From Bacteroidota bacterium (GTDB lineage Bacteria; Bacteroidota; Ignavibacteria; UBA10030; UBA8401), in assembly GCA_008933835.1 (NCBI GenBank), contig WBUG01000025.1, positions 1 through 44,149 of the forward strand: a DNA stretch of 44,149 nt. Direction: 5' to 3'. The stretch's first letter is position 1, and every line of letters starts with the position of its first letter. Below the pieces are notes generated by a model. It was not told the origin of the DNA. It saw only the letters and a program-made list of their open reading frames with translations, and did not search any database. Shown here piece by piece: positions 2 to 19,786 of this stretch. The position numbers and the translations under genes were made by a program.

Positions 2-142
2 AAGGGGGACGTGCAGGGGGACTACAACGGCGGCTTCGGCATCCGGGTCGAAGGCTTCACGCTGGATTATTCCTACAAGTACCAGGCGCTGATGCGGAAC
101 GTCGGCGGCATCTCTTCAGTCTCGGTCGGCTATGAATGGTAA
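2..142 (+). CDS. C-terminal end of a PorV/UPF0164-like outer-membrane barrel protein (partial)
   Basis: The 5' part lies outside the window; 46 codons remain before the TAA at 140-142. The visible tail is Gly/Tyr-rich with alternating hydrophobic residues and ends in an aromatic (SVSVGYEW), as expected for a last beta-strand of an outer-membrane barrel. The pattern of an Asp-Tyr-Ser-Tyr strand, a short turn, then a final S-V-G-Y strand resembles the PorV/UPF0164 family, which helps T9SS cargo export. That assignment is inference from a short tail. The next gene starts inside it (11-base overlap), so the two are probably co-translated. Confidence 0.5.
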   Translation, partial: KGDVQGDYNGGFGIRVEGFTLDYSYKYQALMRNVGGISSVSVGYEW

Positions 143-3140
143 TGTCCTGAAATACACCGCCCTGTCCCTCTTCGCCGCTGCGGCGGTGAGCGGAACGGCT
201 TCGGCGCAGTTCATCAATCGCGATGAGATCAAGAACGCCGGTGGGTACGTCAACTACTCCGGCCGGAACTACGAGAACTACAGCGTCCAGTTCAACAAAC
301 GGAAGATCTACGACAACTTCGGGAACTTCCTGGTGGACGGACTCTCCGTGTACGAGCTCGGTGAGTCGCAGAGCCAGTTCATCGAACCGGAGCTCGGCGG
401 CAGCATCGTGCAGAAGTCGAAGTACTACAACCTCTGGTTCAACAACCTGCTCATCGGCAACGACCAGTACGGCGGGTTCCAGTCGCGTATCATGATGGGC
501 GAGGCCATCCGGACGAAGTTCACCTCGCTCACGTTCGACAAGGCGCGGTTCAACGGCATCCGGTGGGACGGCGCCACGAACAAGTACCGCGGCACCGTGC
601 TCGCCTCGCGCGTGTCGGACCCGGTCCGCATCCGGTTCGACGCATCGGCCCTCCCGAACTCCATCTCGCGCCCGCGGGACTGGTCGGTCTACATGTTCGG
701 CGGACACGTCGAGACCGACATCGGCGACGTGCTCACCGTCGGCGCGACGTACGTGAACCAGCATCAGCGGCATTCGAGCATCAACAGCAGCGCCAGTTCC
801 ATGGACGGCGACGTCGCCAACGCGGTGCCGCGCATCATCTTCATCCGCGTCCGAGACGATTCTCCGAACGACCTGTCGGGCCCGGTCCTCTATACGAAGC
901 CGAAGATCATCGTGAACGGCGTCGAGCGTCCGACGGTCAACATCAACGGCCGCGTGCCGAGCCAGTTCAACACGAACCTGAACAATCCCATCCAGTACTA
1001 CGTCTTCAAGGATTTCTCCATCACCGAACGGCTGTATACCGAAGGGGCGACGTTCTTCGAGGATCCCATCCTCGGTCCGGTCCCCTTCAACCAGACCTCG
1101 TACAATTCCTACCGGTACAACTACGGAATGGGACCCGAACCTTCCTATCCGCTGGAGGTCCGTGGGACGGGGAGTTACACGTTCGCGTTCATCATGCCGT
1201 ACTACTCCGAATCGGCGACCTTCCAGCTGCTCCTCTCCAACGACTACGCGCTCGACGCGGCGCAGGACTGGGTGTTGCAGCGCGACGAGTATCCGACCGA
1301 ATCGCTCAACCTGTATCCGAACCATTCGGACAGCACCCGCCTCGGCCGCCCGACGCAGTTCTTCACCGTCGAACGCGCGACGGGGAACGTGCAGGACGGT
1401 TCCAACAAGAAGTGGGTCTCCTACACGTACGGGCTCAACACCGGCATGGCGCTGTACGGATTGAACTTCACCTTCAACTGGAAGGGGTTCGAGATCGAAG
1501 GGGAGTACAACACCAGCACCTCGTACCGGAAGTATCCGCTGCTGGCGGCGCCGCACTCATCGCTCACCGGTCACGCCTTCTTCGTCCGCGGCACCAAGAA
1601 GATCGGACGGCTCACCCTGGGCGGCGAACGCTACCGCATCGAACCGTGGTACGGCACGGCGCTCGACCTGTACATGCTCGAGAACAGTTTCTTCAGCATC
1701 GCCGGCGCGCAGGGGACCATCACCTACACGCCGCCGGACCAGTACGGCTACACGGTGGACGACGCGAACAAGACCCGCACCGACGGTATCCTCCCCGGCG
1801 GCGCCTTCTTCGCGCTGGTCGACGACAACGACGACAACGACCGGTGGGAGGACGGATTCTACTTCTACAATGCGAAGCCGACCACCGCTTTCCCGCGCAA
1901 CACGGACGTCCTCAACACGAACTCGATCAACGTCAATCCGTACTCGCTCGGTTACCGCCAGAACGTGAACGAGCTCACCGGTCTGAGCGACATCATCCGC
2001 AAGCCGGACACCGGCATCTTCCCGGGCAAGGACAAGGACCGCGACGGCATCCCGGACGACGACCGGAACTCGAACGGTCTCCCCGACTACACCGAAGACT
2101 TCATGACGTTCTACAGCGACCCGCCGTCGTTCGAGGCGGGGGACGACTGGAACAACAACGGCGTCATCGACGTGCAGGAGAACGACATCTATCCGGACTA
2201 TCCCTACACGCCGGACATCGATGGTTACCACTACTTCGCGTCGCTCGAAGCGGCGAAGAACCTCACCTTCGGCGTGGGCCTTCTCCGCGAGGACGCCATC
2301 ATCCGCGGCGGCCGCAACGACGTGAACTATTTCAAGTCCACCTACGGCATCTCCAGCCCGCGCCTCGGTTCCGTCGACCTCTACTATACGTTCAAGCGGA
2401 CATGGGACGACATCCCCAACGACGGTTTCCAGTTCTCCGGCGTCATCCAGGCCGATCCGACCCCCGCCTACGTCCGCGACGCGGTGCTCTACCGGAACAG
2501 TCTTGTCCATACGCTCTACATCGGCACCCGCTACTCCCAGGTCCCGAACCTGAACATCGAGAACAACGTCCGGTTCGAGCTCAACAACCGGTACGTGGTG
2601 GGGACCCCCACGCTGGATGAAGTGGAGCAGGGGACCTTCGTGGACGAACAGTTCAGCGGCAGCATCACGTCGCTCGGCCTGGTCAACAAGATCGACTACA
2701 CCTACGCGCTGCTCGACAACCGCCTCAAGCTCCGCCCGCAGTTCAAGATCCGCACGCTGAAGGTGGTGAGCACGAGCACGTTCGACGACGGTTCGAACTC
2801 CACCTTCATCTCGACCCATACGCAGACGGTGCTCCCCATCTTCCGCACCGACTACAAACTGACGGAGAACACCGAGCTGCACTTCGGTATCCAGGGGACG
2901 AAGCTCTTCGGACTGAGCGACGCGCTGATGGTGAAGAACCGGTACCTTCGCGACGGGGTGGGGGACTTCAACGCCTCGACCACGGCCGTGTCGGTCACGA
3001 ACCGGACACAGTACAGCGGCTACAACATCGTCATCGACTTCGGGTACAAGGTGACGAACTACGAGTATCAGCGCATCGAGGAGATGAAGAACAACACCCA
3101 GTTCTCGGTCATCTACTTCACCATCTTCGCGGGGTACTGA
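132..3140 (+). CDS. Large outer-membrane beta-barrel-like surface protein with calcium-binding repeats, function unknown
   Basis: 1002 residues. A clear signal peptide (cleavage after TASA, about residue 25) sends it to the envelope. Most of the chain is Tyr/Asn/Asp-rich with amphipathic beta-strand periodicity and ends in an aromatic strand (FTIFAGY), which suggests a barrel or SprA-like large surface protein; I do not recognise a named family. Residues ~634-657 (DKDRDGIPDDDRNSNGLPDY) and ~671-700 (DDWNNNGVIDVQEND) are thrombospondin-type-3-like calcium-binding loops, and ~560-570 is another Asp/Asn cluster. The ATG overlaps the end of the upstream barrel gene by 11 bases. The lipoprotein gene downstream starts two bases after its stop, so this is operon-internal. 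Envelope location is well supported, role unknown. Confidence 0.8.
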   Translation: MNGNVLKYTALSLFAAAAVSGTASAQFINRDEIKNAGGYVNYSGRNYENYSVQFNKRKIYDNFGNFLVDGLSVYELGESQSQFIEPELGGSIVQKSKYYNLWFNNLLIGNDQYGGFQSRIMMGEAIRTKFTSLTFDKARFNGIRWDGATNKYRGTVLASRVSDPVRIRFDASALPNSISRPRDWSVYMFGGHVETDIGDVLTVGATYVNQHQRHSSINSSASSMDGDVANAVPRIIFIRVRDDSPNDLSGPVLYTKPKIIVNGVERPTVNINGRVPSQFNTNLNNPIQYYVFKDFSITERLYTEGATFFEDPILGPVPFNQTSYNSYRYNYGMGPEPSYPLEVRGTGSYTFAFIMPYYSESATFQLLLSNDYALDAAQDWVLQRDEYPTESLNLYPNHSDSTRLGRPTQFFTVERATGNVQDGSNKKWVSYTYGLNTGMALYGLNFTFNWKGFEIEGEYNTSTSYRKYPLLAAPHSSLTGHAFFVRGTKKIGRLTLGGERYRIEPWYGTALDLYMLENSFFSIAGAQGTITYTPPDQYGYTVDDANKTRTDGILPGGAFFALVDDNDDNDRWEDGFYFYNAKPTTAFPRNTDVLNTNSINVNPYSLGYRQNVNELTGLSDIIRKPDTGIFPGKDKDRDGIPDDDRNSNGLPDYTEDFMTFYSDPPSFEAGDDWNNNGVIDVQENDIYPDYPYTPDIDGYHYFASLEAAKNLTFGVGLLREDAIIRGGRNDVNYFKSTYGISSPRLGSVDLYYTFKRTWDDIPNDGFQFSGVIQADPTPAYVRDAVLYRNSLVHTLYIGTRYSQVPNLNIENNVRFELNNRYVVGTPTLDEVEQGTFVDEQFSGSITSLGLVNKIDYTYALLDNRLKLRPQFKIRTLKVVSTSTFDDGSNSTFISTHTQTVLPIFRTDYKLTENTELHFGIQGTKLFGLSDALMVKNRYLRDGVGDFNASTTAVSVTNRTQYSGYNIVIDFGYKVTNYEYQRIEEMKNNTQFSVIYFTIFAGY

Positions 3141-3142
3141 CC

Positions 3143-4627
3143 GTGCGGCGAACCCTCTTCCTGGCCCTCGTCCTCCTGGCGCTTCCCGGCTGCGATTCGG
3201 TGTACCATTACGTCATGTTCCCGCCGCAGCGGGAGGAGCACACGCTCATTCCCCGGCTCCCGGCCGTGCTGCCGGCGGGGAAGGGGACGTACCGCATCGG
3301 CGACGACAAGCAGACCATCGTCTACGACGCGAAGGACTTCAAGGTCGAGATCAAGTACATGACCGACTATCAGCTGAACACGTTCGAGTTCCCAGAACAG
3401 TCCCGCTCCGGTCAGTACTCGACCAATCCCTTCACGTACGGCGACTGGGTGGATCCCGAACTCGGGTACATCCCGAACCGGTTCACGGTGTTCAAGGTCT
3501 CCATCTATAATTACGCCGGCGGGAAGCTCAACTTCGACCCGGAGAACGCGACGCTCTTCACGGACCGCGGCGACCAGCTTCCGGCGTTCGCCCGTGAGGA
3601 GAAAGGGGCGCGCAATTACAGTCTCGAGGCGTACTTCAAACGGCGGAAGGGGACCTCGGGCATCGACGACGACGTGTTCGAGAGCCGGATGGGCATCGTG
3701 CGGCGGAACGTCCATTACCTCGGCAAACCCATCTTCCGCGGCGACGTCCGGGACGGTCTGGTGGTGTTCGATCCGCTCGTGGAGGAGGTGGAGCAGGTGA
3801 AGGTGACGATGAAGGATTTCATCCTCGGGTACGACGAGAACAACCAGGCGTCGGAGTTCGAGGACATCGCGTTCTACTTCACCAAACGGAAGTTCGAATC
3901 GCCCGCTGCCGCGAAAGGCGCCGGCGCCGACACGCTCGTGCGCCGTTCGCGTCTCGTGAAGCTCGATCCGTCCGCCCGCCCGGCCGGCGAGGTGAAGATC
4001 GCCGTCAAGACGACCAACGTCTCGGCGGCGGAGGCGGTGATGGCTCCGCTCACGAAGTACTTCTCCGCGCAGACCGACTTCAAGGTCACCGTCGCGAAGA
4101 CCGACCTGCTGCCGGCGGAACTGGCGCGTGCAAACATCCTGCTGGTGTTCGCGGAAGAGGGACAGCTGAAACTGTCGAGGGAACAGGCCGCCGCCGCGGC
4201 GGAGTTCGTGAAGAACGGCGGTTTCATCGTCGCCGACGAACGTTCGATGACCGTGCCGAGCGAGAACTGGACGGAGCTCAGCAACTTCCTGTCCGAGGTC
4301 GTCGAAGCGGCGGGGAGCAACGCCGGACTCGGCCGCGTTCCGTCCGACCATCCCGTCTTCTCCATGTGGAAACGGTTCGAGAAGCTTCCGGCGGTCGACG
4401 CCACCCTGCTGAACGTCGAGGCGCGGGAGGAGATGGAGTACTTGAACGGACTGTACGTCGGCAACCGGCTCGCCGGCTTCATCTCCAACCGCGGCTATTC
4501 CGTGGCGTGGGGGGAGTTCGGGACCTTCGAGGCGCGGGACGGTGTCGATTTCACCAATCAACGGGATTTCCTTGCCAATGTCATCTACTATGCCATCGAA
4601 TCGGCGAAGATCGAGAAGAACAAGTAG
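3143..4627 (+). CDS. Lipoprotein with C-terminal DUF4159-like domain
   Basis: 494 residues from a GTG start two bases after the previous stop. The N-terminus is a lipoprotein signal with lipobox LPGC (Cys17). Residues ~20-270 form a beta-rich region of unknown type. Residues ~283-490 resemble DUF4159: an NGGFI strand-turn (VKNGGFIVADE), an RVPSDHPVFSMW motif, and NRGYSVAWGEF near the end. The same three motifs occur in the same order in the TonB-like protein at 11633-13036 (NGGFIFIDD, RVPNTHPMYSAW, NKGYSFAWGSW), so the locus carries two diverged copies of this domain. DUF4159 has a glutamine-amidotransferase-like fold, but I see no catalytic triad and do not assign activity. Membrane-anchored location is likely. 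Confidence 0.75.
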   Translation: MRRTLFLALVLLALPGCDSVYHYVMFPPQREEHTLIPRLPAVLPAGKGTYRIGDDKQTIVYDAKDFKVEIKYMTDYQLNTFEFPEQSRSGQYSTNPFTYGDWVDPELGYIPNRFTVFKVSIYNYAGGKLNFDPENATLFTDRGDQLPAFAREEKGARNYSLEAYFKRRKGTSGIDDDVFESRMGIVRRNVHYLGKPIFRGDVRDGLVVFDPLVEEVEQVKVTMKDFILGYDENNQASEFEDIAFYFTKRKFESPAAAKGAGADTLVRRSRLVKLDPSARPAGEVKIAVKTTNVSAAEAVMAPLTKYFSAQTDFKVTVAKTDLLPAELARANILLVFAEEGQLKLSREQAAAAAEFVKNGGFIVADERSMTVPSENWTELSNFLSEVVEAAGSNAGLGRVPSDHPVFSMWKRFEKLPAVDATLLNVEAREEMEYLNGLYVGNRLAGFISNRGYSVAWGEFGTFEARDGVDFTNQRDFLANVIYYAIESAKIEKNK

Positions 4628-5234
4628 CCTGATCCTGCTGACGGCGGCGGTGTCGCTGCTCTCGGCGGGGGAGGGGACGCGCGCTCCGTTCGCCGCGTCG
4701 TTTCCGACGGCGTCGTTCGCCGCATCGCTGACGGCCTCCGACACGGCCGCCGTGACGGTGGACCTCGCCGGAGAACGGCGCTCGACCGCTCTCGTGTACT
4801 CCTGCATCATGCCCGGTTCCGGCCAGACGATGCTCGGCCACACGTACAAGGGGGTCGCGTTCTCCGTCGTCGCGTTCGGTTCCGTATTGACCGCCGCCAT
4901 CTCGCACAACAACTTCATCGCGCGCAACGAACGGCTCGACGCGCTGGAGTATCAATACCAGAACGTCACGAACTGGGTGAGCGCGGACCGGCTGTACTCG
5001 GACATGACCGGGGTCCACCAGAAACTGGTGGCGGACAAGAACCGGCGGGACCTCTTCCTCGTCGTCAGCGCGGTGGTGTGGGCGGCGAACATCGTCGACC
5101 TGCTCTATAATACGGACGACCTCGGGCAGGAATCGTTCGTCGCGGCCCCCGTACCGGTCCAGCCCCCGGTCGCCGGTCTCGTCTCGCCGCACCGTCCCGT
5201 CGTCGCCTTCTCGATCCCATTGGAGCGGCCATGA
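4590..5234 (+). CDS. DUF5683-like membrane protein
   Basis: 214 residues. I chose the ATG at 4590, which overlaps the previous gene by 38 bases and places a basic stretch plus hydrophobic signal segment at the N-terminus; an in-frame ATG at 4542 would add 16 non-conserved-looking residues. The central part has the PGSGQ motif (CIMPGSGQTMLGHTYKG) followed by a membrane segment. A charged stretch (~residues 115-155) and a second membrane segment (LFLVVSAVVWAANIVDLL) come next. This layout matches the DUF5683 family common in Bacteroidota and relatives. The function is unknown. It ends in a Pro-rich tail, and its stop overlaps the next start by four bases (ATGA). Confidence 0.65.
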   Translation: MPSNRRRSRRTSSLILLTAAVSLLSAGEGTRAPFAASFPTASFAASLTASDTAAVTVDLAGERRSTALVYSCIMPGSGQTMLGHTYKGVAFSVVAFGSVLTAAISHNNFIARNERLDALEYQYQNVTNWVSADRLYSDMTGVHQKLVADKNRRDLFLVVSAVVWAANIVDLLYNTDDLGQESFVAAPVPVQPPVAGLVSPHRPVVAFSIPLERP

Positions 5235-5680
5235 AGTACCGACATCTCATTCCGTTGAGCCTCCTGTTGCTGGCCGCATGGTCCTGCGAAGCGGACCGCG
5301 CGGTCGTTCCCAACACCCATGACGGCCGAGTCCCCGACATCATCGGTCTCACCTACACCGTCGACACCAACAACGTCGGACAGAAGGTGGTGAAGCTCCG
5401 CTGGGGGTACGATTCGCTGAAGTACGGTACGGACCGGCTCGCCGCCAACCTTCGGGACTGGGAGATCTACCGGAGCGCGACCGACACGTCGCAGTTCACC
5501 TCGCGGGGAAAGACCTTCTTTCCGCAGTTCAACGACGCCTCGAACGAGGTGCAGCCCGGCGGACGGGACAGTATCGTCATCATGTACCGCATCGTGCCGA
5601 ACGGGTACCTGGTCGACGACGTCCAGTTCATCGGCAAACCGTCCGACATTCTACAGATCGTCATCCGCAAAAAGAAGTGA
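5231..5680 (+). CDS. Small lipoprotein with fibronectin-III-like domain
   Basis: 149 residues starting in an ATGA overlap with the gene before. The N-terminus is hydrophobic and ends in a plausible but non-canonical lipobox (AAWSC, Cys19). The rest reads like one beta-sandwich: VVKLRWGYDS, then a strand ending DWEIYRS, then IVIMYRIVPNGY. That order is typical of fibronectin type III modules that describe a value inside a text-like repeat. No enzyme motif is visible. It probably sits in the inner or outer membrane as a partner of the neighbouring surface proteins. The fold assignment is inference from strand pattern only. Confidence 0.6.
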   Translation: MKYRHLIPLSLLLLAAWSCEADRAVVPNTHDGRVPDIIGLTYTVDTNNVGQKVVKLRWGYDSLKYGTDRLAANLRDWEIYRSATDTSQFTSRGKTFFPQFNDASNEVQPGGRDSIVIMYRIVPNGYLVDDVQFIGKPSDILQIVIRKKK

Positions 5681-5710
5681 CCATCAACCATCAACGAGAG
5701 GAGCAGGGAC

Positions 5711-8404
5711 ATGAAACAGACGGTTACTATGGTGCTACTCATCCTCGCCGCGCTCAGCCTGACGGCGACGGCCCAGCAGAAGCTGGACCCGGCGAACTAC
5801 ATCACGGTGGACAATCCGGCGGCCGGCCTGCCCCAGGGAGGCTCCGCCGCGACACCGGAGTACTTCGAGGTCGGTCCGTGGTACAACGGGACCTCCGGCA
5901 ATGCCTTCGGCGGCAACTACCGTCAGACGTCGCAGCTCGGCGGCGAGGTCATCGCCGGCCGATCGGCCACGTGGGTCATCTCCGTGCCGCCGGACAAGGC
6001 GGGAACGTACATCATCTATAACTACGTCCTGCAGGCGGTGAACAACGCCGCCAACGTGTACTACACGCTGCAGTACGAGTTCAGCAACGTCATCCAGGAC
6101 TCGGTGCGGCACGACCTGCGCCGCTCCACCATCACGCAGGCCAACGTCGCCATCGGCGCCTGGGTGCCGCTGATGGTCGACACGCTCAACGTCGGCAATT
6201 ACAAGATCACCGTCGGCGCCGATTCGCTCTCCGGTTCCGCGATCATGCGGGCGGACGCCATCCGCATCCTCCGCAGCGCGGCGAACGGCGCGGACCTCGA
6301 GTTCGGCCGCCGCACCCGCGACGGTTTCGACTCGGTGCGGGTCGGTGAGCGGTGGGACGATTCGCCGCTCGGCTCCATCACCTACAAGGAGATCCCGCTG
6401 TTCAACCTCGGGAAGACCGTACTGACCGTCACGAACGTCTTCGCCACGACGACGCCGAACCGCTGGGACATCAAACTGAAGGACGGCGGTTCCTTCCCGG
6501 TCAACATCGCTCCCGGCGCGAAGGCCGTCCTGGCGGTCGGGTTCCGTCCCTTCCAGGAGGAGACCATCGAAGACTCGCTCATCATCGAGAGCAACGATTC
6601 GCTCGAGCTGCAGGCGCGCATCCCGCTGCGGGGGAACGGCATCAACTACAACTTCATTCTGAACGCCAGCACCGTCAACCAGCCGCACTATAATGCGCCG
6701 TTCAACACGCTCGGCGACCCGAAGGCGCCGCAGATCATCTTCACCGGCACCTGGGGCGAAAGCGGCACGGGTCCCTCGGCGTTCCCGTATCCCATCGCCG
6801 GCGGCAACAACTCCGGCACGTTCTCGTCCGCCGCGGTGGCGTCGGTCGAGTACCGGTTCCAGCTGCCGGACAGCGTGAACGGAAAACCGGGATCCTCGGG
6901 CAACTACTTCATCGAGCACGGCGCCATTCCGTTCACCTCCAACTCGGAGAACAACGCGCAGGTCACCATCGTACCGGCCTTCTCCGTCGACACCATCCGC
7001 GACGCGTACAACCAGAGCGGACTCACCACGCCGCCGTTCTTCTATCCGTTCGCGAACCGGCCCATCTTCCTGAACCAGGGCGACTTCACCAGCGTGAAGA
7101 TCTACCGCGAGGTCGCCACGGCGGCGGTGATCCGTGCGGACCTGCTCCGTATCCGCAAGATCCCGACCGGACCGACCATCGCCGCGACGCCGCAGGTCAA
7201 TTTCGGCAACGTCTCCATCTACCAGAACGAGCGCGACATCGCGAACAACTACGTGAAGGAGGTGCAGATCAACAGCGGCGGCGAATCGGCGCTGCGGGTG
7301 GACAGCGTGACCATCACCAACGCCCGGTTCTACACCCTGCTCAACGTGCCGCAGCCGCCGTTCCTGCTGCCGGCCGTCAACGGCACGCAGAAGATCAGCG
7401 TGATGTTCAAGCCGGACACCATCGCGAACAGCCTGAACGCGACCTTGAACATCTACACGAACGACACCACGAAGAGCCCCTTCAGCATCCCGGTCACGGG
7501 GAACGGCGTCGGGACCGGTCTGGTCGTTGAGGACAATGACGTGGCCGGTACGTTCCTCTTCCCGCAGAGTCCAGTCGTCTTCCCGGACCTCGCCAACCTC
7601 AGCAAGTGGCAGACCCTGACGACCTCCGGCAGCGGCGGCACGAGTACGGTGGGATACGTGTACCATCTGCAGGGCGATGCGTCGCTCCCGAGCAAGGCGG
7701 CGTACGTTGAGTACTTCCCGCAGCTTCCCATCCTCGACGGGCACGGACCGGAGCTCGACACGTTCAACGTCTACGCCCGCATCCCCGTCGGCTCGCCGAA
7801 CTCGTCCCCTGCGGTGAAGTACACCGTGTTCCAGGCGGCGGGCGGTTCCACCATCGAGACGGTGGTGAGCCAGAACAACCGCGGCGTGGACCGCGTCTTC
7901 ATCGGCGCGGCGGTCTTCCTCCGTTCCGGCACGCGTGACGGCCACGGCTCGGCCGTCATCAACGGCAGCATCCGGCTGGAGAACGACACCACGCTCGTGA
8001 ACGCGTACTACGCCGATTCGCTCGTGAACCGGGCGCGGCAGGACAGCTTCCTCGTCCGGGCGGACGCCATCATCCTCCAGGAGTCGCTCACGGGGGTCGA
8101 GTACGAGGTGTTGCCGAACGTCCCGCTCACCTACAGCCTGACGCAGAACTACCCGAACCCGTTCAACCCGACGACGAAGATCGGCTTCGATCTCCCGGCG
8201 GCCTCGGCGGTGGACCTGCGCGTGTATGACATCCTCGGCCGCGAGGTGCGCAGTCTCGTGAACGAGGTGCGCGACGCCGGGTCGTTCACCGTCACATGGG
8301 ACGGCAAGAACAACGCCGGCCGTATGGTGGCCTCGGGCGTCTACATCTACCGTCTCCAGGCGGGCAGCTTCACCGCCACGAAGAAGATGGTGATGATGAA
8401 GTAA
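5711..8404 (+). CDS. T9SS-sorted surface protein with golvesin-like and choice-of-anchor D modules
   Basis: 897 residues with a signal peptide (cleavage after TATA, about residue 21) and a GAGGAG Shine-Dalgarno. Residues ~31-190 look like a golvesin-type carbohydrate-binding module (VDNPAAG start, RADAIRIL end). Residues ~220-312 and ~495-603 are ASH/choice-of-anchor D-like (each ends in GNGI or GNGVG). Residues ~313-490 and ~604-795 are two further golvesin-like units, both ending in RADLLRI or RADAIIL. Residues ~803-897 are the T9SS type-A sorting domain (QNYPNPFNP, VYDILGREV, GVYIYRL, KKMVMMK). No catalytic domain is seen, so it is likely an adhesin or a structural surface protein delivered by T9SS. 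The sorting domain is certain by motif; the other modules are by resemblance. Confidence 0.8.
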   Translation: MKQTVTMVLLILAALSLTATAQQKLDPANYITVDNPAAGLPQGGSAATPEYFEVGPWYNGTSGNAFGGNYRQTSQLGGEVIAGRSATWVISVPPDKAGTYIIYNYVLQAVNNAANVYYTLQYEFSNVIQDSVRHDLRRSTITQANVAIGAWVPLMVDTLNVGNYKITVGADSLSGSAIMRADAIRILRSAANGADLEFGRRTRDGFDSVRVGERWDDSPLGSITYKEIPLFNLGKTVLTVTNVFATTTPNRWDIKLKDGGSFPVNIAPGAKAVLAVGFRPFQEETIEDSLIIESNDSLELQARIPLRGNGINYNFILNASTVNQPHYNAPFNTLGDPKAPQIIFTGTWGESGTGPSAFPYPIAGGNNSGTFSSAAVASVEYRFQLPDSVNGKPGSSGNYFIEHGAIPFTSNSENNAQVTIVPAFSVDTIRDAYNQSGLTTPPFFYPFANRPIFLNQGDFTSVKIYREVATAAVIRADLLRIRKIPTGPTIAATPQVNFGNVSIYQNERDIANNYVKEVQINSGGESALRVDSVTITNARFYTLLNVPQPPFLLPAVNGTQKISVMFKPDTIANSLNATLNIYTNDTTKSPFSIPVTGNGVGTGLVVEDNDVAGTFLFPQSPVVFPDLANLSKWQTLTTSGSGGTSTVGYVYHLQGDASLPSKAAYVEYFPQLPILDGHGPELDTFNVYARIPVGSPNSSPAVKYTVFQAAGGSTIETVVSQNNRGVDRVFIGAAVFLRSGTRDGHGSAVINGSIRLENDTTLVNAYYADSLVNRARQDSFLVRADAIILQESLTGVEYEVLPNVPLTYSLTQNYPNPFNPTTKIGFDLPAASAVDLRVYDILGREVRSLVNEVRDAGSFTVTWDGKNNAGRMVASGVYIYRLQAGSFTATKKMVMMK

Positions 8405-8419
8405 ACGAAGCACCGCGGC

Positions 8420-8485
8420 AACGGCGCAGAGGTGCGGAGACGCGCATTGTGGCATCCGGCGCCTCCGTCCCTCTGCGCTGCCGTT
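8420..8485. repeat. Imperfect inverted repeat in the gap before the TPR gene
   Basis: The arm at 8420-8439 (AACGGCGCAGAGGTGCGGAG) pairs with 8462-8485 when one 3-base gap and two mismatches are allowed. It fills most of the 91-base gap and has no T-run, so it is a weak terminator at best. It may be a remnant of a dispersed intergenic repeat. Confidence 0.45.
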
Positions 8486-8495
8486 TCCGGACGCA

Positions 8496-11400
8496 ATGTC
8501 GATCCAGATCATCATAACGATCCTTCTCGCTGCGGGCAGTCTGGCGTACTTCATCCCGACGCCGCAGGAGCTCCGTGAGGCCTTCACGGCGGGGCAGAAC
8601 TATTTCGCCGCGCGGAACTACCAGAAGGCCATCGCCCAGTACGACAAGGTGCTCGAGACCGAGAGCGACCTGCTCACGGCGGACAGCGTGCGCGTGACCC
8701 TGCTGAACGGCGACCTCACCGTGGGCGTCCGGTCGGCGGCGCTGTACCAGAAGGGGAACGCGTACCGCATCCTGGGAGGGCTCGACTCGTCCATCGCCAC
8801 CTTCCGCGCCGCGCTGGAACGCCCGGACTCCCCGCGCCTACTCGTCCTCTCCCGCTACCAGATCTACGACCTGTTCCTGCAGAAGAAGGAATATGACAGC
8901 GCCATCACCGAGGCGCGCCAGCTCATCCGGCTGCATCCCTTCGACGAGAAAGTGGAGCAGGCGCACTACGACATCGGATGGGCGTTCCGTTTCAAGGACC
9001 AGTACGACAGTTCCTCCGCCTCCTTCCGGTTCCTCGCCGAGCGGTATCCCGAAAGCCCCTTCCGCGTCCGGGCGCTCTACCAGATCGGACAGAACGCGCT
9101 CGACGCGCAGCGGTGGACCGACGCCATCGCGGCGTTCCGCCGGCTGGCCGCGGAGTACACGCCGGAGAAGTTCTCGAAGACCGATTTCGAGAGCATGGAG
9201 CTGCGCGCCAACCGCGAGCGGCAGATCTTCGAGGCCGCCTCCAACCGCGAATCGGACAACACCAACCTGGAGCTCGTGTCGAAGGGGGAGTTCAAGGTGG
9301 CCGAGGCGTTCGAACACCTCAACGAGGTCGATTCGGCGGTCGGCCGCTACCAGTACATCATCCGCACGTACACGCTGCTTCCCTCCCTGGTGGAGATCTC
9401 GTACATCCGGTGGGCGGAACTGCTGCAGCGGGTGCAGGGGACGGAGAACGCGGTGGCGGTGTACCGGCGCGCCATCGACGAACAGTTCCAGGACAAGGTG
9501 TTCCAGGCGCGGATGCAGTACAAGATCGCGCGCACGTACCAGGACCAGAAGGAGTTCCGGAAGGCGGCCGCGGAGTATGCGTTCTTCGTGAAAGCGTACG
9601 CCGAACATGCCGACGCCTCCAATTTCCCCCTCGAGAACGCGCGGTTCTTCTCCCTGCTCAACTCTTCCGCCGCGAAGGACCATCCCGCCGTCATCGCGGC
9701 GGCCGATTCCTTCCTCGCCTACCATGACGGCAGCGAGTTCGTACCCAAGGCGCTCGTGATGCGCGGGAACGCCCGCCTGGCGCAGCGCGAGTTCGACGCG
9801 GCGCGGGACGATTACCGGCAGGTGATGGACCGCTTCCCGATGAGCGAGGAATCGGACCATGCGCGGATGCAGACCGCCCGCACGTTCTACGACGAGAAGA
9901 ACTTCACCGAAGCGGTTCGCGCCTATCAGGACCTCGAGAGCTCTCTGACCGGGGAGACCGAACTGAGCGAGGTCCGGTACTTCCTCGGCATGTCCCAGTT
10001 CAACGCCGGCGCCCTGGACGAGGCTGCCGCATCGCTCCGCCAGGTCGCCCCGTCGTCTCCCTTCTATCCGTACGCGTTCGGCCGCACCGTCAAGATCCTG
10101 TCGTCGCAGGGGAAGACCGACGAGGCGTCGACGTACATCTCCGGCATCCTCGCGGCGCTTCCCGATTCGTCGGAGCACCGCGCCTACGCGCACCTCGCCT
10201 ACGGCGAGCTCCTCACCGCGCAGGGGAAGTTCCCGGAGGCCATCCGCGAGATGACCGTGGTGCTGAACGACGAATCGGTGGTCCCGAACGCCCGGCTGCA
10301 GGCGCGCTTCTCCCGCGGTTCCCTCTACCAGCAGACGAAACGGTACAAGGAGGCCATCGTCGACCTGGAACTGCTCCTCTCGCAGGAGGCGTTCCGGACC
10401 ACCTTCGCAACGTCCGTGCCGATGGCGAACGAACGGCTCGCGATGGCGTACCTCGGGGTCGGAAAACGCCGCGAAGCGGTGGAACGGCTCGTCACGCTCA
10501 AGGACCAGGCACCGACGAAGGCCGAACGGGTGCGCTACCTCTCCGCCATCACCGAACTGTACGTGCAGCTGAACGATTTCGCGAACGTGGTGCAGTACGG
10601 CACGCAGGTGGTGCGGGCCGACAGCGCGGACGAGCTCTCCCGCGCGAAGGCCTACGCCGCCCTCGCGAACGCGTACGGGAACCTGAACCGGATCGACGAC
10701 GTCGTGACGACGCTGATGGAGGCGGCCGACACGATGCCGAAGCATCCGTACATCCGCGACGTGTACTGGGAGACGTCGACGCTGATGTTCGACGGCGGTG
10801 CGTTCGCCCCGGCCGAGAAGCTCTTCCAGAAGTTCATCACCCGGTATCCGGACGATGCGAGAACGGAGAAGGCGCTTGCCAACCGGGGCACGGCCCTCTT
10901 CGGCATCGGAAAGGTGGACGAGGCGGTCGCGGTCAAGCGGCAGTATCTGCAGAAATACCCGACGAACACGGACGTGCCGAAGATGCAGTACGAGATCGCC
11001 GAGATCTTCTACAATGCGGAACGGTTCGACATGGCCATCCAGGAGTACGAGAGGACGGCCAAACTCTACCCATCCTCGGAGTACGCCACCACCGCTCTCT
11101 ACAACACCGGCTGGTGCCACTACCGTCTCGGCGACACGGTGCGGATGGTGCAGTCGTTCGAACGGTTCGCAAAGTCCTATCCCGCGGCGCCCCAGGCTCC
11201 GGACGCGTACTTCAGCATCGGCGACTTCTACTACAATGCGAAAGAGTACGAGAAGGCGAAGGGGGCGTACCAGTACATCCTGGACAAGTACCCGGCCTAC
11301 CCGCGGTATGAGGAGGCGAAAGCGCTCGTCCGGGAACTGAACCAGATCAACTCCTATACGGAATACGCCAAGGCGATGAACTACTTCGACACGCAGGACT

Positions 11401-11636
11401 TCGCCCGCGCCATCCCGATGCTGCAGGAAGTGCTGAAGAAGTACCCTGACGCCGACATCCGCTTCGCCTGCGAGGCGAACATCGCTTCGGCCTACTCCGA
11501 ACTCGGCGACCGGAAGAAAGCGAAGGAACTCTTCGCCGCCATCATCGAGAAGTATGCCTCGGTCCCCGAAGCGCAGATGGTGGTCTTCTTCGCCGAACAG
11601 CATAAACGCTGGCTCGAATCGGACAAGCACCAATGA
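8496..11636 (+). CDS. Large tetratricopeptide-repeat (TPR) protein
   Basis: 1046 residues. An N-terminal hydrophobic segment (residues ~3-20) acts as a signal or anchor. The rest is a nearly continuous series of TPR helix pairs, recognisable by repeated A-x-Y-x-x-A and YP-type turn patterns (GQNYFAARNYQKAIAQYDKV, FSIGDFYYNAKEYEKAKGAY, YDSSSASFRFLAERYPESPF). The spacing and the frequent YP-x-x-x-x-A boundaries resemble BamD/YbgF-like envelope TPR scaffolds. It probably binds partners in the periplasm. Its stop overlaps the next start by four bases, linking it to the TonB-like DUF4159 gene. Conservation of that pairing would mark a functional complex. There is no enzymatic domain. Confidence 0.85.
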   Translation: MSIQIIITILLAAGSLAYFIPTPQELREAFTAGQNYFAARNYQKAIAQYDKVLETESDLLTADSVRVTLLNGDLTVGVRSAALYQKGNAYRILGGLDSSIATFRAALERPDSPRLLVLSRYQIYDLFLQKKEYDSAITEARQLIRLHPFDEKVEQAHYDIGWAFRFKDQYDSSSASFRFLAERYPESPFRVRALYQIGQNALDAQRWTDAIAAFRRLAAEYTPEKFSKTDFESMELRANRERQIFEAASNRESDNTNLELVSKGEFKVAEAFEHLNEVDSAVGRYQYIIRTYTLLPSLVEISYIRWAELLQRVQGTENAVAVYRRAIDEQFQDKVFQARMQYKIARTYQDQKEFRKAAAEYAFFVKAYAEHADASNFPLENARFFSLLNSSAAKDHPAVIAAADSFLAYHDGSEFVPKALVMRGNARLAQREFDAARDDYRQVMDRFPMSEESDHARMQTARTFYDEKNFTEAVRAYQDLESSLTGETELSEVRYFLGMSQFNAGALDEAAASLRQVAPSSPFYPYAFGRTVKILSSQGKTDEASTYISGILAALPDSSEHRAYAHLAYGELLTAQGKFPEAIREMTVVLNDESVVPNARLQARFSRGSLYQQTKRYKEAIVDLELLLSQEAFRTTFATSVPMANERLAMAYLGVGKRREAVERLVTLKDQAPTKAERVRYLSAITELYVQLNDFANVVQYGTQVVRADSADELSRAKAYAALANAYGNLNRIDDVVTTLMEAADTMPKHPYIRDVYWETSTLMFDGGAFAPAEKLFQKFITRYPDDARTEKALANRGTALFGIGKVDEAVAVKRQYLQKYPTNTDVPKMQYEIAEIFYNAERFDMAIQEYERTAKLYPSSEYATTALYNTGWCHYRLGDTVRMVQSFERFAKSYPAAPQAPDAYFSIGDFYYNAKEYEKAKGAYQYILDKYPAYPRYEEAKALVRELNQINSYTEYAKAMNYFDTQDFARAIPMLQEVLKKYPDADIRFACEANIASAYSELGDRKKAKELFAAIIEKYASVPEAQMVVFFAEQHKRWLESDKHQ

Positions 11637-13036
11637 CGCTCGCACAGAAACTGGCATCGTTCCGCAGGTTCGGCGTCATCGGTATCGCCGGTTCCGGGTT
11701 GTTCCATATCCTCATCGGCACCGCCGTGCTCCTCAATCGCGACCCCTCCACGGAGAAACTGGTCGAGGTGGAGATCCGCACGTACGACATTGTGAAGCCG
11801 CCGGTGAAGTTCGAAGCGCAGCCCCCGCGGTTCGTGAAGTCGTTCGACCTGGCGAAACAGGTGGACTACGTCCCGCAGACGAACGTCCGGCAGATCGTCT
11901 TCTCACGCGCCGACGCGCCGGTCGCTGCCGGCCCCGCCACGAACGCTCCGCCGACGCCGTCGTCCGGCGGTAAGGGGGGAGGCGAAGGTTCGGTCTTCTT
12001 CGGTGCGCTCACCGCATCGGCGGGGGCGTCGGACCTCGGCTGGGGCATCCCCGGCGGAGCGACGAGCTACGGACGCAGTTTCGGCGTCGGCGGAAGCGGC
12101 GGACTCGGCGCGGGTCCGGGCGACGGCAAGGATTGGGGACCGCAGTTCGCCAGCGACGTGGAGAACACGCGTGGCGGGGGCGGAGGGGGGCTGACCGCGA
12201 TGCGCGAGAACCTCCTGTCGTCCGAGAACTTCGAGGACCGGTTCGACGGGTTCATCGAAGTGAATCCCCGGAACAAGAAGGACATCCGCGGCTTCCTCAA
12301 CGTCTACCAGCTCGAGTACAAATCGTCCCGACTCGAAAAGTCGCCCGCCACCGGCTGGGACATCGTGGACAATCAGCCGTCGTGGAACTGCGTTCCGCTT
12401 GCGCTGCAGAGCCTCGCCCAGTACGCCAACGACAGCACGAAGCTCCGCGTCAGCATCCGCGGCACCATCCGCATCGATTCGAAGGAGCTCACCACCATCC
12501 CGTTCCTCTTCATGATGGGGTTCCAGGCCTCCGTGAAATACACGAAAGAGGAGGCGCGGAACCTCGGTAACTATCTGCGCAACGGCGGCTTCATCTTCAT
12601 CGACGACGGCAACGCGTACCAGCCCGGGGCCTTCAACATCACCGTGCGGCAGATGCTGAAAGATGCCCTCGGATACGAGGCCATCTTCGAACGCGTTCCG
12701 AACACCCATCCGATGTACAGCGCCTGGGAGACCTTCAACGGCCCGCCGAGCGGCGACGACTTCGTGCGGTACGACCGGCGCGTCCGGGAGATCAAGGAGA
12801 TCTATCCGTACGTGGAGGCCATCTTCATCAACGGCCGCATGGTGGCGCTCATCTCCAACAAAGGATACTCCTTCGCGTGGGGCTCGTGGAAGTACCTGCC
12901 GAGCGCTGCGGGAGGACCGTACGACAACACCCGGCAGCTGCAGTTCGGACTGAACGTGGTGGTGTACGCGCTGACGCAGCGCGGCGGCATCGTGGACCAG
13001 AACCGTACCCGCATCGCCGCCGAACAGAAACGATGA
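11633..13036 (+). CDS. TonB-like membrane-anchored protein with DUF4159 domain
   Basis: 467 residues. A single membrane segment (~residues 14-34) is followed by KLVEVEIRTYDIVKPP and a proline-containing stretch, the usual start of TonB-type proteins. Then comes a Gly/Ser-rich linker (~100-190) with a GGGGGG run. Residues ~250-450 are a DUF4159 domain: FLFMMGFQA, NGGFIFIDD, RVPNTHPMYSAW, NGRMVALISNKGYSFAWGSW, NVVVYAL. The gene starts in an ATGA overlap with the TPR gene. DUF4159 proteins are often encoded near TonB/ExbB/ExbD and TPR genes, but no ExbB/ExbD is in this window. The TonB resemblance is limited to topology and the short N-terminal motif. Confidence 0.75.
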   Translation: MTLAQKLASFRRFGVIGIAGSGLFHILIGTAVLLNRDPSTEKLVEVEIRTYDIVKPPVKFEAQPPRFVKSFDLAKQVDYVPQTNVRQIVFSRADAPVAAGPATNAPPTPSSGGKGGGEGSVFFGALTASAGASDLGWGIPGGATSYGRSFGVGGSGGLGAGPGDGKDWGPQFASDVENTRGGGGGGLTAMRENLLSSENFEDRFDGFIEVNPRNKKDIRGFLNVYQLEYKSSRLEKSPATGWDIVDNQPSWNCVPLALQSLAQYANDSTKLRVSIRGTIRIDSKELTTIPFLFMMGFQASVKYTKEEARNLGNYLRNGGFIFIDDGNAYQPGAFNITVRQMLKDALGYEAIFERVPNTHPMYSAWETFNGPPSGDDFVRYDRRVREIKEIYPYVEAIFINGRMVALISNKGYSFAWGSWKYLPSAAGGPYDNTRQLQFGLNVVVYALTQRGGIVDQNRTRIAAEQKR

Positions 13037-13051
13037 CATGACGGGAGGGAT

Positions 13052-15718
13052 ATGACCAGGACCATCGCTGCAGCGTTCTTCATCGCCGTCCTGAGCGGCG
13101 CCGCCGTCGCGCAGAGCGAGCGGACGCTCCACCGGGAAGATCGGGAGCAGTATGACCGGTACTTCGAACAGGCGGGGGCGGAGTTCAGCGTTCCGGCGGA
13201 CCTGCTTCGCGGTCTCTCGTTCGCCGAGACACGATGGACGCACATGGTGTGGGCGCCGGGCGATTCGGTCTCGATGTGTTCCGGCATGCCCCGCGTCCAC
13301 GGCGTGATGGGGTTGTGGGACAACGGTTATTTCGGATTCTCGCTCCGCGACGCGGCCCGGCTCATCGGCCGGACGCCGCAGGAACTCAAGGATTCGCCCC
13401 TTCAGAACATCCGCGGAGCGGCGGCGCTCCTCCGGCAATACCGTGACGAACGGCCCGTACCGGACGGCGTATCGGCGGAATCCATCGAATCGTGGCAGTA
13501 CGCGCTGGCGGCGTTCAGCGGATTCCCGCAGAACGACATCGCTCAGCGGCGCGGTGCGGAAGTGTTCTCGGTGCTCGCATCCGGATACCAGCGGGACCGT
13601 ATCACCATCCGGAAACGGACGGTGGACCTCGATCTCGTCGCACGGCTCATCGACGAAGAGGCCGCACGCAGACAGGAACGCGCGCCGGCTCCGGACCCGG
13701 AACGGACGAACGCTCAGCCCGATTATCCGCCGGCGAAATGGGACCCCGCGTACTCCGGGAACTTCGGCACGCAGCTCATCCAGCGGAAGTTCGTCGTCAT
13801 CCACGACGTGGAAGGCTCCTACCTCGGCTGCATCTCCTGGTTCAAGAATCCCAGCGCGCAGGTCAGCGCTCACTACGTCCTGAACTCCAATCCGTACGGC
13901 GTCAACTTCACGACGAAGGCCCCCAACGGTTCGCCCGACGCTCCGGTCGGCGAAGTGACGCAGATGGTGGAGGAGAAGTACCGCGCCTGGCATGTGGGAT
14001 GCTGGAACTCGTACATGGTCGGCATCGAACACGAGGGTTATTATAACGTGACCGGATGGTACACTCCCGAATGCTTCGACGCCTCCGCCAAACTCGTGCG
14101 GAGCATCTGCGACCGGAACGGCATCCCGAAGGACCGGAACCATGTCATCGCCCATCAGGAATGGCAGAACGCAACGTGGAAGAGCTGGGTGAACTCGACG
14201 GGACAGGGATTCGACCCCACCTGCAACACCCACATCGATCCCGGTTCCAACTGGAACTGGACCTCGTTCATGGCGCTGGTGACGAAATCGGACACGGTGC
14301 GGCCGGTGATCACCGCCGCGCTCCCCCGTTCGGACAGGAACGCCTTTCCTGTGTACAAGGACATCGTCGTCACCTTCAATACCCCGATGGACGTCACGTC
14401 GGCGAACGCCGCCTTCTCCGTCATCCCGTCCGTGACCGGCACCAAGACCTGGAACGACGACAACACCGTGCTCACGTTCAATCCCTCGTCGAACCTCGCC
14501 TGGGCGACCTCCTACACCGTGAACGTGGACACCTCCGCGAAGAACATCGCCAAGTCCCGGAACCTCGGCACGACACCGTATACGGTCTCTTTCACCACCG
14601 TGCCGCTCGATACCGCCGGTCCGGCGGTCCTTTCGACCTATCCCTCCGCCGGACAGTCCGGTATCTTCACCGCGGCCGACGTCGCCATCATGCTCGATGA
14701 AGCGGTGCAGACATCGTCGCTCTCCGCCACGGTGAAGGTGTACGACCCGCTCGGCGCCAGCGTCGGTATGGCCAACGCGCGGAACGACGTCGTCAACGAC
14801 CGCTCCGTGGTCTCGTTCGCCCCGGCGAACATGAAACCCAACTCGACCTACACGGTGAAACTGCTCCCCGGCGTGAAGGACATGTACGGCAACGCCTCCG
14901 CTGCCGAGACGGTCGTGCCCTTCACCACCGGACCGGAGGTCGTTACCGCCGGCTCACTGCTCGACAATCTCGACGCGAACACGAAGGGGTGGACGCAGCC
15001 GGCGCAGACCCCGGCGAGCCGATCCATCGATACGAACCTGACGATGTTCCTCTTCACCACGGAGAAGGTCCGCAGCGGCAGCTCCGCGCGGTTGTCGTAC
15101 GCGTTCACGGCCGACAGCGGCGGCATCGCCGCCGTCTCCGCCTCCGGTTTCCCGCCGCTCGATCTGTATTCGTCGGTCGGCATCTGGGTGTCGGGCGACG
15201 CCGGCGGGAACACGCTCCAGTTCATCTTCGCGCCCGGCGAGCAGGTCATCGATGCCGGTCCCGTCAATTGGCGCGGCTGGAAATTCCACATCGTCCCTCT
15301 GGCCGGCATCACCGGGACGTTCAAGAAACCGGCCGCCATACGGCTCCTGCAGCAGCCCGGCGGACGCAATGAGGGGACCGTGTACTTCGATGAGATGCAG
15401 TTGAACGCCTCCATCACGTCGGCGCCGGAAGGGCCGGACGGACCTCCCATGTCGTTCGCGCTGGGGCAGAATTTCCCGAATCCATTCAATCCCGCCACCA
15501 CCATCCGTTTCTCCGTCGGAGGGAACGAGACCGTTCCCGTGTCGCTGACCGTCTATGACGCCATCGGCCGTGATGTGGCGGCCCTTCTCCGTTCTCCGCT
15601 CACGCCGGGGGACTATACGGTCCGCTTTGATGCCGCGCACTTGCCTACCGGCGTTTATTATTATAGATTGACATCAGGTGCACGGTCGGCGGTCGGGAGA
15701 ATGATGCTCATCAAATGA
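13052..15718 (+). CDS. T9SS-sorted N-acetylmuramoyl-L-alanine amidase (Amidase_2) with lysozyme-like N-terminus
   Basis: 888 residues, GGGAGG Shine-Dalgarno, signal peptide cut after AVA (about 20). Residues ~27-150 resemble a transglycosylase SLT-like fold (FSVPADLLRGLSFAETRW). Residues ~243-410 are the amidase, which cleaves the sugar-peptide bond of peptidoglycan: zinc ligands His251 (VVIHDVEG), His368 (IAHQEW) and Asp396 (HIDPGSNWNW), and catalytic-type Glu326 (VGIEHEGY), as in AmpD. Two Big_5-like Ig domains (~417-517, ~520-627), a jelly-roll-like binding region (~633-789) and the T9SS sorting domain (~799-888, QNFPNPFNP, MMLIK) follow. It is therefore predicted to be exported across the outer membrane, where it can meet foreign rather than its own wall. 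Confidence 0.85.
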   Translation: MTRTIAAAFFIAVLSGAAVAQSERTLHREDREQYDRYFEQAGAEFSVPADLLRGLSFAETRWTHMVWAPGDSVSMCSGMPRVHGVMGLWDNGYFGFSLRDAARLIGRTPQELKDSPLQNIRGAAALLRQYRDERPVPDGVSAESIESWQYALAAFSGFPQNDIAQRRGAEVFSVLASGYQRDRITIRKRTVDLDLVARLIDEEAARRQERAPAPDPERTNAQPDYPPAKWDPAYSGNFGTQLIQRKFVVIHDVEGSYLGCISWFKNPSAQVSAHYVLNSNPYGVNFTTKAPNGSPDAPVGEVTQMVEEKYRAWHVGCWNSYMVGIEHEGYYNVTGWYTPECFDASAKLVRSICDRNGIPKDRNHVIAHQEWQNATWKSWVNSTGQGFDPTCNTHIDPGSNWNWTSFMALVTKSDTVRPVITAALPRSDRNAFPVYKDIVVTFNTPMDVTSANAAFSVIPSVTGTKTWNDDNTVLTFNPSSNLAWATSYTVNVDTSAKNIAKSRNLGTTPYTVSFTTVPLDTAGPAVLSTYPSAGQSGIFTAADVAIMLDEAVQTSSLSATVKVYDPLGASVGMANARNDVVNDRSVVSFAPANMKPNSTYTVKLLPGVKDMYGNASAAETVVPFTTGPEVVTAGSLLDNLDANTKGWTQPAQTPASRSIDTNLTMFLFTTEKVRSGSSARLSYAFTADSGGIAAVSASGFPPLDLYSSVGIWVSGDAGGNTLQFIFAPGEQVIDAGPVNWRGWKFHIVPLAGITGTFKKPAAIRLLQQPGGRNEGTVYFDEMQLNASITSAPEGPDGPPMSFALGQNFPNPFNPATTIRFSVGGNETVPVSLTVYDAIGRDVAALLRSPLTPGDYTVRFDAAHLPTGVYYYRLTSGARSAVGRMMLIK

Positions 15719-19711: not shown

Positions 19712-19786
19712 GCTCTCGTAGTTCAAGGGATAGAACAGGAGTTTCCTAAACTTCTAATCGCAGTTCGAGTCTGCGCGAGAGCACCA
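19712..19786 (+). tRNA. tRNA-Arg, anticodon CCT
   Basis: Full cloverleaf: acceptor GCTCTCG with CGAGAGC, D-stem GTTC/GAAC, anticodon stem GGAGT/ACTTC with loop TTCCTAA (anticodon CCT at 19745-19747), T-stem CGCAG/CTGCG with loop TTCGAGT. The discriminator is A and CCA is encoded at 19784-19786. It reads AGG arginine codons. It lies 32 bases before proS on the same strand. Confidence 0.93.

Follow-up and report, generated by a model that had tools for sequence, protein, structure and literature searches.

Gene content and layout of the locus

Do the genes that open this contig encode the parts of a single envelope machine and, if so, what would such a machine do? The window, that is, the whole stretch of 44,149 nucleotides analyzed here, begins with a run of seven open reading frames, designated A to G (Table 1), which the original prediction had taken to form one trans-envelope complex. 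A strong coding bias was found in all seven, with a third-position GC of 0.84-0.92, and the frames are real genes at the predicted coordinates. The description of most junctions as overlapping was wrong: overlaps are found at only three of the six (B/C, C/D and F/G), while gaps of 2, 30 and 91 bases separate A/B, D/E and E/F, respectively. The true start of C is probably near position 4578-4590.

The locus itself begins upstream of A. The first codons of the window are the C-terminus of a further gene, X, whose frame ends as does that of its orthologue in locus L019. The end of contig C158, from the same genome, holds the remainder of X and the whole of another gene, Y. There is no overlap between the two contigs, and a few codons of X seem to fall in the gap that separates them. 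The module thus consists of A to G plus X and Y, about nine genes in all.

Table 1. Genes of the module as they occur in the window
Gene	Product	Position	Strand	Basis
X	C-terminal 46 codons; PorP/SprF-PorV family outer-membrane protein	2..142	+	Frame ends SVSVGYEW
A	1002-aa predicted outer-membrane beta-barrel	132..3140	+	AlphaFold2 model; no family
B	Lipoprotein with Ig-like N-terminus (about 30-250) and DUF4159 (281-491)	3143..4627	+	Lipobox; PF13709
C	DUF5683 membrane protein	4542..5234	+	PF18935 E 1.9e-8; two hydrophobic segments
D	Small lipoprotein	5231..5680	+	Lipobox Cys in 20/20 orthologues
E	T9SS-exported surface protein with Golvesin_C-like and Hydin/ASH-type Ig domains	5711..8404	+	
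F	1046-aa TPR protein with hydrophobic segment at N-terminus	8496..11636	+	
G	TonB-like protein: TM helix with His25, Pro/Gly-rich linker, C-terminal DUF4159	11633..13036	+	

Directly after G, at 13052-15718, lies gene H, which encodes an N-acetylmuramoyl-L-alanine amidase with Big_5 domains and a T9SS tail; it adjoins the module in the family of the window only. Further along the window, a tRNA-Arg gene (CCT anticodon) is located at 19712-19786.

Distribution and conservation of the gene neighborhood

Searches for gene A recovered it from 14 of 60 relatives and from 30 of the 294 genomes of the class, and the genes of the module were clustered in five families of this class, in permuted order. 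A scan of a genome collection yielded 45 module loci, distributed among the Ignavibacteria, Kryptonia, KSB1, Zixibacteria and Marinimicrobia. X lies immediately upstream of A at each of the 41 testable loci, and Y immediately upstream of X at 36 loci out of 36; the gene that comes next after A is F in 31 of 40 loci, and B in 9. Intergenic gaps in the 45-locus set are short (medians of 17 and 10 bases). That the content is retained while the order is permuted points to a functional unit rather than to mere chromosomal inertia. The expected co-location of the genes in relatives was thus recovered in several phyla, in permuted orders.

Full-length G is present only in genomes that carry A; in the other genomes tested, only a short DUF4159 protein was found. 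C and D were seen in loci of the Ignavibacteria, and not in those of the Kryptonia, KSB1, Zixibacteria or Marinimicrobia. Beyond the phylum of the window, prevalence was measured for the Marinimicrobia only, among which carriers are rare (3 of 245 genomes). Judging from record titles, nearly all carriers are known from metagenome assemblies or as candidate genomes, so that genetic work is limited at present, and we know of no cultured carrier of the module or associated phenotype.

Additional genes were encountered at some loci. In the Zixibacteria, the Marinimicrobia and one family of Ignavibacteria, the locus also includes a T9SS-tailed GHL10 hydrolase. In the Kryptonia, G and B are separated by one more lipoprotein-like gene (about 280 aa; L128:18700-19557), for which no clear family match was obtained. 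At the KSB1 locus, G is duplicated in tandem (L129:17333-19909), and both copies have the TM histidine and a DUF4159-type C-terminus.

The DUF4159 domains of B and G

Both proteins match PF13709 above its curated cut-off of 25.9 bits, G with 95.0 bits (E 5.5e-27) and B with 40.1 bits (E 3.6e-10). The three motifs that they had been said to share in the same order are indeed spanned, in that order, by a BLASTP alignment of B with G (27% identity, E 6e-21), and the profile-profile comparison of the two DUF4159 families gave a probability of 100 and E 2.4e-39. From these alignments, the shared motifs reflect homology and not chance, and the two domains are homologous, as proposed. Neither result that would have refuted the prediction, a scattering of the genes in relatives or a difference in fold between the two domains, was obtained.

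In the AlphaFold2 model of B (pLDDT 86.8), the DUF4159 domain is closest to 4i66, a solved DUF4159 protein (Z 18.7, rmsd 2.8, 188 aligned); the next structural matches are ThuA, IFT52 and glutamine amidotransferases (Z about 9-10). The Ig-like N-terminal domain of B has weak structural matches (Z about 8). On the basis of this homologous B domain, the DUF4159 fold is predicted to be glutamine-amidotransferase-like. The PDB sequence matches of G include 4i66 as well. Another of its PDB matches, to a designed TIM barrel (E 4e-5), was regarded as fortuitous.

The lipobox cysteine of B (Cys17) is present in all aligned rows. DUF4159, on the other hand, is absent from B in the KSB1, Zixibacteria and Marinimicrobia, and the DUF4159 copies carried by B are all members of a single clade (support 100/99), so that the domain was probably gained once and looks like a later addition to B. 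The original prediction had placed one copy on a lipid anchor and one on a TonB-like anchor. This pairing does exist in B and G, but since the domain is lineage-specific on B, the basic plan does not call for a copy at each membrane. The prediction also comprised neither the motor nor the X-Y surface pair.

A third DUF4159 protein of the same genome is of the short, ordinary type (contig C106:3300-3968, locus L001); the gene is followed on C106 by that of a 1135-aa protein. With the G profile, a short DUF4159 protein was found in all or nearly all of the 31 genomes tested. These canonical proteins (about 220-290 aa, one per tested genome) belong to the same domain family as the G and B domains, but they are too small for a TonB-like arm and, unlike G, they are found with or without the module.

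The TonB-like arm G and its probable ExbB-ExbD motor

G has a single N-terminal TM helix, in which a histidine was found in 25 of 25 sequences. With two motif positions compared, the residue four places before this histidine is Ser in 13 sequences, which is the TonB state, and Ala in 12. The TonB-like anchor attributed to G is therefore supported, in the form of a TonB-type TM helix with an invariant histidine. TonB, TolA and the recently proposed vWA transducers bind their motors via the histidine of an SHLS motif (PMC12204202), and it is to this residue that the TM histidine of G corresponds. At the other end of the protein, TonB_C was not found, and DUF4159 was the only domain of G returned by the scans; both other TonBs of the window genome match TonB_C.

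Outside the family of the window, wherever contigs reach far enough, ExbB and one or two ExbD genes are found inside the cluster; they may separate F from G, follow G directly, or head the cluster. The locus of the window's own family has no motor genes, which are encoded elsewhere in the genome. One of the sets carried elsewhere by this family, designated system (i), comprises ExbB-ExbD-ExbD-TonB-PstS-TPR. In a tree of ExbB proteins, module ExbBs accompanied by a single ExbD form one clade (support 100/99), with members from the Ignavibacteria, Kryptonia, KSB1, Zixibacteria and Marinimicrobia. Module ExbBs accompanied by two ExbDs group instead with the ExbB of system (i) (100/100). The program warned of long branches where the main clades join; these clades are themselves well supported. 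Family f24 includes both motor types, which together with the clades indicates that the motor was replaced at least once. The module of the window family probably shares the ExbB-ExbD-ExbD motor of system (i).

The motor-facing end of G changes when a lineage swaps its motor type. In single comparisons of short segments, the N-terminus of G from motor-swapped loci matched the TonB of system (i) with E 1.4e-6, whereas that from unswapped loci gave E 0.03 and was not aligned. The G N-terminus of the window family, compared in the same way, had a weak match to this TonB (E 4e-4), equal to its match to the TonB of another set, system (ii), but the G of this family clearly belongs with the swapped type (E 1.5e-22, versus 8e-9 with the unswapped).

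The ExbB-ExbD-ExbD-TonB set comes with a PstS-like solute-binding protein, and where the module has adopted this motor type, in families f6 and f24, a similar protein adjoins it (L183:9673-10614; L104:19351-20193).

The predicted barrel A and the surface proteins

A matches no Pfam, NCBIfam or PDB sequence. It is about 50% identical across families of Ignavibacteria, and 35-39% identical to its counterparts in the KSB1, Zixibacteria and Marinimicrobia. Its AlphaFold2 model (mean pLDDT 71, pTM 0.70) contains at least 20 long strands, and the protein first described as barrel-like can accordingly be called a predicted outer-membrane barrel, the strand count and openness of which are not settled at this moderate model confidence. 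Residues about 504-695 form a long, poorly predicted stretch, which has the most conserved sequence of the protein and is Ca-binding-like. Structural matches were to many unrelated outer-membrane barrels with similar scores, TonB-dependent transporters and SprA among them; such an assortment makes A a barrel of no assigned family.

The orthologue of X in L019 matches PF11751 with 29.7 bits (E 5.9e-7), above the cut-off of 22.3, and that in L028 reaches 19.1 bits, under the same cut-off. A match of the X orthologue to PorV_fam (E 5.5e-20) is likewise under the cut-off of that model. Conserved cysteines are absent from X: no column exceeds 30% Cys in an alignment of 42 X sequences. SprF, which forms a disulfide bond with GldK, has twin cysteines in its C-terminal tail that are important for gliding (PMC12635249). 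A disulfide track attachment of the SprF/GldK kind was considered for X, and is ruled out by the lack of conserved Cys.

Y ends in a T9SS-type C-terminal tail (CHU_C), for which the match in the window genome is just under the cut-off. A clear F5/8 type C (galactose-binding) domain is found on Y in KSB1 and Marinimicrobia relatives (E 2.5e-18 and 7.7e-10); for the Y of the window genome, the match to this domain is sub-threshold only (E 0.11). For E, matches were obtained to Golvesin_C (7.6e-7), HYDIN Ig (2e-5), Por_Secre_tail (5.4e-6) and TIGR04183 (2.2e-10). The surface parts of the module, with these tails, carry T9SS signals.

Proposed mechanism and rival explanations

The association of the genes, their domain content, the motor histidine, the motor swap with its change in G, and the predicted barrel and fold argue for a common interpretation: the locus is likely to encode a proton-driven trans-envelope force-transduction machine, with its own outer-membrane and surface partners. 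This degree of confidence applies to the architecture of the force machine; how the parts assemble physically, in which direction they exert force and what they do at the surface are inferred.

Proton flow through an inner-membrane ExbB-ExbD motor would move the arm G, which would cross the periplasm together with F and reach an outer-membrane assembly formed by A and the lipoproteins B and D. There, the DUF4159 tip of G, perhaps guided by F, would act on the periplasmic face of the A-B assembly. The A-B-D assembly would in turn be tied to the T9SS-exported surface proteins Y and E, of which the lectin-like Y is probably held by the PorP-like barrel X. The force would most likely move, release or load a surface lectin or adhesin assembly, as if a TonB/TolA-type arm were acting on an SprB/SprF-like surface pair. 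In the family of the window, whose locus has lost the dedicated motor, the ExbB-ExbD-ExbD encoded elsewhere would probably be borrowed.

As to the purpose of the machine, the T9SS tails and lectin-like domains suggest a surface lectin or adhesin engine, a reading that we put forward tentatively, and that we favor over glycan import. In the case of energized import, A would be a large outer-membrane transporter, opened by the TonB-like G much as a TonB-dependent transporter is by TonB, for a glycan caught by Y or E and cut by a hydrolase. This is possible, if somewhat doubtful. An ExbBD motor with a TonB-like arm normally powers import, a galactose-binding F5/8C domain is found on Y in relatives, some loci include the T9SS-tailed GHL10 hydrolase, and TonB-dependent transporters are among the structural matches of A. 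These are, however, generic barrel matches, obtained at scores similar to those of unrelated barrels, and A matched none of the plug or TonB-dependent receptor families; moreover, G is without the TonB_C that would bind a TonB box, and an inner-membrane importer is not conserved in the locus. A might otherwise be the exit channel of a machine that exports or assembles a surface polymer, or Y and E themselves, a rather unlikely arrangement to which the large size of the barrel, the presence of SprA among its many fold matches and the constant pairing with the T9SS-tailed Y could be related. A second exit is nevertheless not needed for Y and E, which have T9SS signals in genomes where SprA is present, and polymer-synthesis genes are not conserved in the locus.

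It is more improbable still that the module serves envelope maintenance, as a device of the Tol-Pal or peptidoglycan-tethering kind by which the outer membrane would be constricted or stabilized. Such a role would be in keeping with the lack of identifiable tol-pal loci in Bacteroidetes (PMC12204202), with the amidase gene H that adjoins the module in the window family, and with F, which matches TPR families down to E 6.8e-49 and scores against the YbgF/CpoB and BamD models. TPR models match TPR proteins in general, however, and no Pal, TolB or OmpA-like domain was found among the scanned module proteins. A module present in 30 of 294 class genomes is too patchy for housekeeping, and its most constant neighbor is the X-Y surface pair. 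A role as the energy source of the T9SS in these lineages, in replacement of GldL/GldM, seems very improbable. In its favor, the module proteins X, Y and E are of T9SS type. SprA was found in all 48 of the genomes tested, whether or not they carried the module, and in another eight carriers, and GldL was found over the cut-off in none of the 48, although a very divergent GldL may escape this search. But every tested genome that is devoid of the module also has SprA, and the module can therefore not be the general T9SS motor. A defense system was also considered, and discarded as no PADLOC match was obtained.

Relation to known systems

Transducers driven by ExbBD or TolQR, including one class with a foreign tip, are already known. 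With TonB-ExbB-ExbD and TolA-TolQ-TolR, the module shares the motor genes, the TM histidine, the Pro-rich linker and a periplasmic C-terminal domain. This domain is TonB_C or the TolA C-terminal domain in those systems, whereas it is DUF4159 in G, and their partners (a TonB-dependent transporter, or Pal/TolB) were not found in the cluster, which contains A and T9SS-type surface partners instead. A part list resembling that of the module, and only in that respect, is found in the Agl-Glt gliding machine of Myxococcus (AglRQS-GltA-K).

The vWA-tipped force transducers, whose function is unknown, likewise combine a TonB-like anchor with a foreign C-terminal domain, and have TPR and tolQ/tolR neighbors (PMC12204202). 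The difference resides in the tip, vWA in one case and DUF4159 in the other, and in the partners A, B, X, Y and E, which are specific to the module. No DUF is mentioned in the main text of PMC12204202, and DUF4159 is mentioned by no paper in the literature searched. For the surface pair, the closest parallel is SprB-SprF, or a type B CTD protein with its PorP-like anchor (PMC9143113, PMC12635249), to which the CHU_C-tailed Y, always beside X, can be likened; but SprF has twin cysteines where none is conserved in X, and no GldL was found in these genomes.

As far as the literature was searched, the DUF4159 tip, the set of partners and the distribution of the module are undescribed, and the gliding and T9SS literature on Ignavibacteria contained no experimental work on the locus. 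It is conceivable, though we hold the idea with considerable reserve, that Ton, Tol-Pal and T9SS/Gld have in the module a counterpart of a type of its own, a proton-driven outer-membrane machine of ancient standing within part of the FCB superphylum, and that it is a motility or adhesion engine moving or loading lectins by means of a tip with a glutamine-amidotransferase fold. Few known ways bring the energy of the proton gradient to the outer membrane, and the module would add one to them: a force transducer whose tip is of a new kind, and whose unusual outer-membrane and surface partners are constant over several phyla. It makes testable what, besides TonB_C, TolA and vWA, can hang on an ExbBD/TolQR motor, and to what end, and it gives a concrete context to the uncharacterized DUF4159 domain.

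Within the window genome, a paralogue of F (F') is encoded beside the separate ExbB-ExbD-TonB set that constitutes system (ii) (L184:11134-14124, contig C150). With its TPR protein of about 1000 aa followed by ExbB-ExbD-TonB, system (ii) resembles the module in having an F paralogue and a motor of its own. Its TonB has TonB_C, unlike G, and no A, B, X or Y is found beside it. Among the genomes examined, system (ii) was present in both module-positive and module-negative ones, for example in the module-negative genome G004.
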